NCBI GenBank assembly: GCA_026225415.1
Contig: JAMFSS010000006.1
Coordinates: 64,001-128,000 of the forward strand
Direction of reading: 5' to 3'
Length of the DNA: 64,000 bases
Source: Alphaproteobacteria bacterium
Lineage (GTDB): Bacteria; Pseudomonadota; Alphaproteobacteria; UBA9219
Shown: positions 40,722 to 43,745 of the stretch, piece after piece
Layout: the number at the start of each line of letters is the position of its first letter
Position numbering within the stretch: the stretch's first letter is position 1
Position numbers and translations under genes: made by a program
Notes under the pieces: generated by a model
The model's database searches: none
What the model was told of the DNA's origin: nothing
Seen by the model: only the letters and a program-made list of their open reading frames with translations

Positions 40722-41300
40722 ATGAGTCTTGAAAAGATGAAAATCGATTTTATAAGGCGGGAATTTCTGACGCTCTCAATTAATGGAGCGTTTCAACATA
40801 ATCATGTTTATGAGGCTCAAGTCTCACAAGATCAGAAAACTGTCTTAAAAGAAGAAATATACGAAGAACTAAACAAGATAGTCACCGAATACAATCAATC
40901 CGATATAAATATAGATTGCGAAACACATATCACAAAAATTGAGGGATTTAGAACATGGCTTGAGGGCAAAACAGAAATCATAAGACCGGAAAAGCATGGC
41001 GAAGATGGTGCGACTTTCGGGACGGCCCAGAAGCTGCTTAATCTCTACCTGAAATATATGTGGTGCCTGGGAATATTAAATAAAATACCGCCACATTGTC
41101 CGCTGGATTCCATCATCCTTCAGAAAACGCTTGGGCTAAAAGAAAGATGGAAAAAGATGAGCAAAGGGCAATATGACGTTATTACAAAAAAGATGCCAAA
41201 CATCGAAAAGATAGCAGAATGGGAATTAATGGAATGGGAAGAATACAGAAACAAACAGTATAACAAATCGAAGAAAAACCTGTCCAATAAACAACAATGA
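40722..41300 (+). CDS. hypothetical protein, AT-rich
   Basis: 192-aa ORF; segment [36 protein letters not shown]. Confidence 0.75.
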
Positions 41301-41379: not shown

Positions 41380-42333
41380 ATGACATCCACCAAAGACCAG
41401 ACAACCCCAGACACCACAATCTCCGCCCGCAAAATATTCGACATCGATACCGAATGGCAAATCCCCGCCTTTGCGGAACGCACCGAACATGTGCCGGAAG
41501 TGGACAAAGCTTACCGTTTTGACCCCGATACCACGCTCGCCATTCTGGCCGGTTTCGCGCATAACCGCCGCGTATTGGTGCAGGGTTTCCACGGCACCGG
41601 CAAATCGACCCATATCGAACAAGTCGCGGCGCGCCTTAACTGGCCGTGCCTGCGCGTCAATCTCGACAGCCATATCAGTCGTATCGATCTGATCGGCAAG
41701 GACGCCATTGTTTTAAAAGACGGCAAACAAATCACCGAATACCGCGAAGGTATTTTGCCGTGGGCGTTGCAACGCAATTGCGCGTTGGTGTTCGATGAAT
41801 ATGACGCGGGCCGTCCCGATGTGATGTTTGTTATCCAACGCGTGCTGGAAGTCGAAGGCAAGCTTACCCTCCTCGACCAGAACCGCGTTATCCACCCGCA
41901 CCCAAGCTTCCGTTTGTTCGCCACATCCAACACGGTTGGTCTTGGCGATACCACCGGCCTCTATCACGGTACGCATGCGCTCAACCAAGGCCAACTTGAC
42001 CGTTGGAACATCGTTGCCAATCTGAATTACCTGCCCGCCGAGGAAGAAGAAGCCATCATCGCCGCCAAAGTCCCCGCCTTTACCAAAACCCATAAAGACG
42101 CGCTGCGCGGTATGGTCGCACTCGCCAACCTGACCCGCCAAAGCTTCATGAACGGCGACATCTCCACCGTCATGTCGCCGCGCACCGTTATTTCATGGGC
42201 GGAAAACGCGGTGATTTTCGGCAATACCGAATCCGCCTTTCGTCTGACCTTCCTGAACAAATGCGACGAAGCCGAACGCGCCGCGATTGGCGAGCTGTAT
42301 CAACGCTGCATGGGCGCGGAACTGGCGGCATAA
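41380..42333 (+). CDS. cobS: cobaltochelatase CobS subunit / MoxR-like AAA+ ATPase
   Basis: [42 protein letters not shown]. Confidence 0.93.
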
Positions 42334-42334
42334 C

Positions 42335-42943
42335 ATGCTTGTTCTTATCGATGAGAGCGGTGATGCAGGTTTCAAATTAGACAAAGGATCTTCTTCTTAT
42401 TTTGTCGTCACAATGACAGTTTTTTCAGACTTTGCTGAAGCCGAGAAATGTTCTGCCGCTATTAAACAATTACAAACTGCTCAACGCATATTCCCCGAAT
42501 TTAAATTTAGCGGCTGCCGCGATGTTATCCGCGATCAGTTCTTTGAAACCTTAAAAGCTTTTGATTTCCGCATTTATGCTATGGTTGTTCCCAAAAATTC
42601 TATTTATAGCCGCACCTTGAAGTCAGATTCTGAAAAATTCTATAATTTCTTTGTCCGTCAATTATTATCTTATCATGCCAATCTTTTACAAAATGCTCAT
42701 GTCAAAATTGACGAAAGCGGCGACAAAAAATTTAAAAGAGAATTAGCCAATTATATTCGACGCATGATTCCCAGAGATCAAATCAAGAAAATTACCTTCA
42801 AGAAATCCAAAAACGATCACTTGATTCAGCTGGCGGATATGGTCACGGGCGCGATTGCCCGTGCCTATACATCCAAGAAAGATCATGCGCGTTGGCACAA
42901 TATGATCTTTTCCAAGATAGACAATTTATGGAAATTCAAATAG
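42335..42943 (+). CDS. DUF3800-type protein
   Basis: N-terminal MLVLIDESGDAGF and C-terminal HLIQLADMVTGAIARAY typical of DUF3800; start 2 nt after the cobS stop. Confidence 0.85.
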   Translation: MLVLIDESGDAGFKLDKGSSSYFVVTMTVFSDFAEAEKCSAAIKQLQTAQRIFPEFKFSGCRDVIRDQFFETLKAFDFRIYAMVVPKNSIYSRTLKSDSEKFYNFFVRQLLSYHANLLQNAHVKIDESGDKKFKRELANYIRRMIPRDQIKKITFKKSKNDHLIQLADMVTGAIARAYTSKKDHARWHNMIFSKIDNLWKFK

Positions 42944-42950
42944 AGGGAAA

Positions 42951-43034
42951 GGGACGTTTCCGCAGCCTATCTTGGCGATTGCCAAGAAAGAACTCCATCC
43001 GGAGCCGATTCGGCTAACGGAAACTAGGTAGCCC
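42951..43034 (+). ncRNA. candidate structured RNA downstream of the DUF3800 gene
   Basis: Nested GGG/CCC and GTTTCCG/CGGAAAC helices enclosing CTTGGC-GATT-GCCAAG, CTCC-ATCC-GGAG and CCG-ATT-CGG hairpins; possible pseudoknot GCCTA/TAGGT. Confidence 0.65.
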
Positions 43035-43106
43035 ATTATAACAACGAATCGCTTGACAATGCAAGGGAATCATACATATGCCCATCAAAGAGTTAGCAAG
43101 AAAATC

Positions 43107-43745
43107 ATGAAACCCGCCGCCGCCGCCGAATTTTTTCGCCGCCTATGCGAAATCGATCCCGAACCGAAAACGGAATTGAACTATACCAATGCCTATACGC
43201 TTTTGGTCGCGGTCGTCCTTTCTGCGCAATCCACAGACGCGGGCGTGAACAAAGCCACCGCATCCCTGTTCAAAAAAATCACCACGCCCCAACAAATGGT
43301 CAAGCTGGGCGAGGACGGATTGCGCCCCTATATCAAAACCATCGGCCTCTATAACGCCAAGGGCAAAAACATTATCGCGCTGTCGCAAATCCTGATCGAC
43401 AAATTTAACGCACAGGTTCCGGGCACACACGAAACCCTCCAATCCCTGCCCGGCGTTGGCCGCAAAACCGCCAATGTTATTCTCAATGTCTATTTCGGCC
43501 AGCCGACAATGGCGGTCGACACCCATGTGTTCCGCGTGGCCAACCGCACCGGCATGGCCAAAGGCACAACGCCCGAACAAGTCGAAGAAAAGCTGGTCAA
43601 AACCATCCCCTCCAACTATATGCGCCACGCCCATCATTGGCTTATTCTGCATGGGCGTTACCGGTGCAAAGCCCGCAAACCGCTCTGCCCCGCCTGTGTG
43701 GTGCGGGATTTATGCGCCTTTAAAGACAAAACTATTGAGATATAA
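43107..43745 (+). CDS. nth: endonuclease III
   Basis: LPGVGRKTANVILN, VDTHVFRVANR and Fe-S Cys ligands near the C-terminus. Confidence 0.96.
   Translation: MKPAAAAEFFRRLCEIDPEPKTELNYTNAYTLLVAVVLSAQSTDAGVNKATASLFKKITTPQQMVKLGEDGLRPYIKTIGLYNAKGKNIIALSQILIDKFNAQVPGTHETLQSLPGVGRKTANVILNVYFGQPTMAVDTHVFRVANRTGMAKGTTPEQVEEKLVKTIPSNYMRHAHHWLILHGRYRCKARKPLCPACVVRDLCAFKDKTIEI

Follow-up and report, generated by a model that had tools for sequence, protein, structure and literature searches.

A DUF3800-IX RNA convergent with a DUF3800 gene in a small acquired cassette, and its copies without the protein on viral contigs

Between a cobS-like gene and nth, the window (the whole 64,000-nucleotide stretch analysed here) carries a DUF3800 gene and, convergent with it, a structured RNA with a candidate promoter. 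The features are as follows, P1 strands being given in the RNA sense.

41380–42333, plus strand: cobS-like gene, left flank (PF12556, AAA_5)
42334–43106, no strand: acquired cassette (DUF3800 gene, RNA and RNA promoter), its site empty in seven congeners
42335–42943, plus strand: DUF3800 gene, 202 aa (PF12686, E 5.8e-14), convergent with the RNA
42953–43023, minus strand: core of the DUF3800-IX RNA, a three-way junction (cmscan, covariation, strand test)
42957–42967, minus strand: 3' strand of P1, the first two G being part of UAGG
42970–42987, minus strand: hairpin 3 (P3), UCUUGGC-AAUC-GCCAAGA, variable in sequence with the pairing kept
42989–43007, minus strand: hairpin 2 (P2), tip CC-GGAU-GG, the sequence-conserved core of the family
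43012–43023, minus strand: 5' strand of P1, pairing with 42957–42967
43035–43064, minus strand: candidate sigma-70 promoter, TATAAT at 43035–43040 and a weak -35 box, TTGCAT, at 43059–43064, spacer 18
43107–43745, plus strand: nth (endonuclease III), right flank (HhH-GPD, HHH, EndIII_4Fe-2S)

The DUF3800 gene and the RNA form a small acquired cassette of about 770 bp that exactly fills the interval from the cobS stop to the nth start; in seven congeners cobS adjoins nth (from an overlap to a gap of 125 nt), with neither DUF3800 nor the RNA. A disrupted DUF3800 gene lies about 0.9 kb from nth in genome G384 (contig C9; L127 and L098, same order), so the neighbourhood of nth may be a repeated landing place. 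Upstream of cobS is a 192-aa ORF (40722–41300) that matches nothing in Pfam or PADLOC.

On the minus strand, 42953–43023 matches the Rfam family RF02968 (DUF3800-IX RNA) over the full length of the model (cmscan, positions 1–67 of 67). The score of 46.5 bits exceeds the curated cut-off (gathering threshold 36.8), with E-values of 7.9e-7 in the search of the 64-kb window and 2.5e-9 in a local search. No other Rfam family reaches its gathering score within the window, and the source genome has a single copy of the RNA. The family was reportedly described by Weinberg et al. in 2017 as a candidate structured RNA. The junction is closed by P1, with AGCC/GGCU as an inward extension of the closing helix, and three stretches are nearly invariant: CCGAA in the first junction strand, CC-GKAU-GG at the tip of hairpin 2, and UAGG in the last junction strand. 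A preliminary description, made from the plus strand, had rightly proposed a functional-looking structured RNA here in preference to a simple terminator or a UTR.

Folding is better than that of dinucleotide-shuffled controls on both strands, and more strongly so on the minus strand. For 42945–43040 the z-scores are -2.66 on the plus strand (2/200) and -3.43 on the minus strand (1/200); trimmed to 42950–43031 they are -2.35 (4/200) and -4.55 (0/200), respectively. A covariance model built from 8 members found 55 among the fetched loci. Standard pairs make up 90.8% of the pair cells of 47 distinct homologues, double changes occur in 18 of the 24 pairs, and the covariation score is reached by none of 500 shuffles, although all of these figures lean towards the structure because the homologue alignment was fitted to it by the model. 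When the partners are slid by 1–3 columns, pairing falls to 32–50%. Among homologues, changes on both sides are seen in 10 of the 11 P1 pairs and in all six modelled pairs of P3. The compensatory substitutions that the preliminary description had named as a check do exist.

The strand follows from the wobble pairs. In the Rfam orientation the 47 homologues have 136 G-U cells and 24 A-C cells; two positions of hairpin 2 supply 74 of the former and 3 of the latter, and without them the excess stays (62:21). G-U pairs become mismatches on the complementary strand, and selection therefore acts on the minus-strand RNA. A function of the plus strand was rejected on the same comparison, and what had first been read was the complement of the RNA, since the RF02968 match is on the minus strand. 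The family identity, strand and conserved fold are established by these analyses, and for the element in the window we regard them as practically certain.

The complementary segments quoted in the preliminary description are all present in the sequence at the coordinates given there, but they fared differently among homologues. The long closing helix, TCTTGGC/GCCAAGA and CTCC/GGAG recur there. The outer GGG/CCC pair falls outside the conserved motif, and the CCG-ATT-CGG hairpin is absent from the consensus; it was dismissed because its bases are the nearly invariant junction CCGAA and one side of hairpin 2. The proposed GCCTA/TAGGT pseudoknot is not conserved and shows no covariation: UAGG hardly varies, in contrast to the 5' leader (ACCUA, ACACA, AAAAG, CAAAG), and the complementarity of leaders to UAGG equals that of shuffled leaders. 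As to the suggested resemblance to ribozymes or to guides and scaffolds of RNPs, a self-cleaving ribozyme or other known RNA was rejected, RF02968 being the only match in Rfam. A guide RNA is not supported either: the bases that vary fall in compensated helix positions and in a loop, and nothing resembles the hypervariable stretch of a guide. Since the RNA goes together with one subgroup of DUF3800 proteins, a role in an RNP is plausible. A simple terminator was discarded too, as no long T run directly follows the window copy on either strand.

The RNA is probably transcribed from the minus strand by a promoter of its own, judging by its upstream boxes. On the minus strand, 11 nt separate the TATAAT box from the modelled RNA, transcription being expected to start near 43027–43029. 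As a consensus match only, the candidate promoter scores z 3.5 when compared with mononucleotide-shuffled versions of the 70 nt scanned. In many homologues a -10-like box ends 11–16 nt upstream of the RNA; several phage copies have none. Over 47 sequences the excess of the promoter-box score over mononucleotide shuffles is moderate (mean z 1.6), and the promoter claim therefore leans on the fixed distance in single loci (L030, L073, L077, L006).

Between the end of the DUF3800 gene, at 42943, and the RF02968 match there are 9 nt. Relatives of its protein were sought in 84,980 species genomes with peptide patterns, and in the best of them (L004, L005, L006) the RNA is on the opposite strand, no more than 26 nt from the last codon. 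The layout of linked loci is strictly convergent, with the RNA ending between a few nt and 40 nt past the DUF3800 stop. A broken DUF3800 gene in Sphingomonas pokkalii (L007:3001-3357) retains the N-terminal part, and the RNA is absent there. With a profile of the subgroup, complete proteins score at least 246 bits, contig-cut ones at least 224 and a remnant (L062) 84, compared with at most 81 for other DUF3800 proteins of the same bacterial class; by these profile scores the subgroup of the window protein is well separated. Twenty other DUF3800 loci included five with DUF3800-VI RNA, upstream and on the strand of the gene, and one with DUF3800-V, convergent. The pairing of RNA and protein is specific to the subgroup, other DUF3800 proteins having other RNAs or none that was found.

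DUF3800 has been described as an RNase H fold associated with putative ncRNAs, and its members as accessory nucleases at some type V and VI CRISPR loci (PMC10910872; PMC12669027). An AlphaFold model of the window protein (11-member alignment) has a pLDDT of 89.9. Foldseek ranks RNase HII structures highest in the PDB (1eke, 2dff, 1x1p; E 9.3e-5 to 1.5e-3), the best at E 9.3e-5, probability 1.00 and TM 0.53/0.49, all for a predicted model. Among solved structures the fold is accordingly predicted to be closest to RNase HII. In an alignment of relatives, D6, D126 and D168 are invariant and E7 nearly so, as far as sequence goes. Profiles of candidate defence genes in PADLOC-DB also match the protein (PDC-M04A, E 1.1e-11). 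Close relatives were found neither in a peptide-pattern scan of IMG/VR nor in INPHARED, and plasmids gave only distant relatives, on two plasmids.

Copies of the RNA extend well beyond this arrangement. A scan of IMG/VR with a pattern of the conserved core gave 78 stretches, 47 of them with a full or cut match to the model; because the contigs were found by the core pattern, these numbers are no estimates of abundance. Matches to the 20-base core alone are to be expected by chance, whereas compensated helices P1 and P3 are not. A DUF3800 gene of the subgroup, or a remnant of one, stands directly 3' of 14 among 46 distinct full sequences; the other 32 are orphan copies, and 30 of these are on viral contigs. 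Taken alone, the orphan set is 90.6% paired, and its 184 double-change cells compare with no more than 72 in any shuffle, so the fold is kept. In 15 whole viral records with an orphan RNA there are no PF12686 matches, although the records may be fragments. The neighbours identified with PHROGs include terminase subunits, a major head protein, an endolysin, a Mom-like protein and an integrase, each encoded on the strand of the RNA; in L032 a phosphoesterase (Pfam) is on the opposite strand. Having been picked by eye from ORF lists, these neighbours are no unbiased count. DUF3800-linked copies also occur on viral contigs, two of them adjoining integrases, and on one viral contig (L062:2439-2794) an intact RNA stands beside a C-terminal remnant of DUF3800. 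Two viral records (L042, L087) are cut inside the RNA.

Outside viruses, two chromosomal loci (L002, L009) and a plasmid (L091) have the RNA with no adjoining DUF3800, and the genome of L002 has no DUF3800 anywhere. On the plasmid, pAC1084_1 of Acetobacter persici (L091:2992-3558), the RNA scores 60 bits and has, in the position of DUF3800, a convergent gene for a protein of 159 aa without a Pfam match. Isolated phages in INPHARED, searched by blastn with four RNA queries (two being consensus-made composites), gave only short, chance-like stretches; a match in a Mycobacterium phage has only 10 bits with the DUF3800-IX model.

The source genome has a second DUF3800 gene, outside the window, between parA and parB, and it is accompanied by an RNA candidate of another type.

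L088:1300-1410 (G000:C9, about 143299–143409), plus strand: convergent candidate sRNA with a promoter-like pair, a hairpin and an intrinsic terminator

The promoter-like pair is TTGACT-16-TATTCT, the hairpin GGAUUGGG-N-UUYCCGGUCG and the core GGATTGGGCTTTTCCCGGTCG; no Rfam family matches well. In the sequence alignment of this type one side of the terminator stem is shifted. The element adjoins DUF3800 genes in L115, L135 and L140, and a pattern scan located it on 82 IMG/VR contigs, DUF3800 adjoining it in 7 of 80 hits examined by script. Many other viral hits lie 0–7 nt behind the stop of a gene and are followed by the terminator, with no DUF3800 nearby (L144, L146, L150, L161, L171, L176, L180, L182 and similar); in four tested examples the gene ahead is a phage major head gene. 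In an isolated phage, the temperate Paracoccus phage vB_PkoS_Pkon1 (MK291442.1; L226:2501-3285), the RNA is convergent with an unannotated DUF3800 gene, both close to a CI-like repressor. The second type shows the same split as DUF3800-IX, occurring with DUF3800 and, on viral contigs, without it.

Phage copies without the protein suggest that the RNA controls an anti-phage or toxin-like enzyme, which a copied RNA might disarm. Our preferred reading, held tentatively and by analogy, is that the RNA checks the DUF3800 nuclease as an RNA antitoxin would, and that the phage copies are decoys. The scheme that we infer, comprising transcription, binding, inhibition, defence and decoy action, would run as follows. 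The RNA would bind its own DUF3800 protein and restrain the nuclease, as the RNA antitoxin does in type III toxin-antitoxin systems; infection by a phage would free or activate the enzyme; and phages with the RNA and no protein would supply it in trans as a decoy. In favour of this reading are the minus-strand RF02968 match, the covariation and the G-U excess, the subgroup-specific pairing, the predicted RNase HII fold with its conserved acidic residues, the PADLOC profiles, the empty cobS–nth site, the copies beside integrases, the orphan viral copies that keep the fold, the viral records free of DUF3800, the remnant locus L062 and the precedents of phage RNA mimics. A pure antitoxin would not explain the three chromosomal and plasmid loci with no adjoining DUF3800, and the phage copies could serve another purpose. 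A wider version, doubtful as it stands, is that the DUF3800 family consists of anti-phage or toxin enzymes with an RNase-HII-like fold, each controlled by a structured RNA of its own, and that diverse phages disarm the system with RNA decoys, often encoded in late operons and belonging to two or more unrelated types.

The RNA could instead be an activating cofactor or scaffold of the nuclease, together a working RNP, with phage copies borrowing or titrating the host enzyme. Any tight complex of RNA and protein would account for the sequence-conserved core and for the pairing with one subgroup, and the accessory role of DUF3800 nucleases at some type V and VI CRISPR loci points the same way (PMC10910872; PMC12669027). 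We consider this unlikely, however, as the RNA has no guide-like variable segment, and protein-free phage and plasmid copies make more sense as inhibitors than as activators. Rather improbable, too, is that the RNA belongs primarily to phages, with a regulatory or structural part in late operons, and that hosts have a copy since DUF3800 senses or cleaves it when a phage infects. Distinct viral copies without DUF3800 do outnumber those with it, some lie near terminase, head and lysis genes, and the second RNA type directly follows phage major head genes; yet the viral ratio is biased, the sample having been drawn by a viral-only scan, the varied positions within phages speak against one fixed function there, and chromosomal copies have promoter-like boxes of their own.

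Regulation by antisense or convergent transcription, in which the RNA would pair with the 3' end of the DUF3800 mRNA, is very improbable: the strictly convergent layout, with the RNA end so close past the stop, would suit it, but the gene includes neither the conserved core nor the compensated helices, and orphan copies keep the core with no DUF3800 gene to pair with. An attachment site or mobile-element end acting as DNA is barely credible, despite the clean insertion between two genes, the viral records cut inside the RNA and the copies adjoining integrases, because the G-U bias marks selection on one RNA strand, the source genome has one copy, on one side of the gene only, phage copies lie at unrelated positions, packaging, head or lysis genes make up most of the phage neighbours identified, and many copies are preceded by promoter-like boxes.

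Set against known systems, the RNA in the window has the junction, conserved core and DUF3800 neighbour of RF02968, and its fold is no different. What is added to the family is the convergent arrangement in a cassette whose site is empty in congeners, the promoter box and the phage copies without the protein; relative to the searched literature, leaving out the original family description, the approximately 30 distinct viral copies with no nearby DUF3800 are new. In that literature the DUF3800 RNAs are computationally defined families only, with no function reported. The empty-site cassette, predicted nuclease fold, probably promoter-driven opposite-strand RNA and protein-free phage copies make the function of a DUF3800 RNA directly testable. 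DUF3800-V (RF02964) and DUF3800-VI (RF02915) are likewise structured RNAs beside DUF3800 genes, and DUF3800-V is convergent at the 3' end of the gene (L126), like the window RNA; both differ in Rfam model and DUF3800 subgroup, and DUF3800-VI lies upstream on the strand of the gene. RNase HII (1eke, 2dff, 1x1p) resembles the DUF3800 protein in predicted fold and in a DE motif near the N terminus, but the PDB sequence search detected no sequence relationship.

Type III toxin-antitoxin systems (ToxIN, AbiQ) also couple a structured RNA to a protein with a nuclease fold, and mimics of that RNA can be carried by phages. ToxI, a repeat array, precedes the toxin on the same strand and shares its transcript, while the window RNA is single, on the opposite strand and 3' of the gene; the toxin has the ToxN/AbiQ endoribonuclease fold, and the window protein is predicted to be RNase-HII-like instead. 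For the ToxI repeat layout see PMC8860590; a phage RNA mimic, pseudo-ToxI, is a precedent for escape (PMC5086642). Racr RNAs, which mimic CRISPR repeats, are virus-encoded RNA anti-CRISPRs proven by experiment (PMC10651486). They resemble the orphan DUF3800-IX RNAs as solitary virus-encoded copies of the RNA component of a defence system, but for DUF3800-IX the defence and decoy roles are what we infer. If phage copies do act as decoys, RNA-based counter-defence would extend beyond ToxI mimics and RNA anti-CRISPRs.
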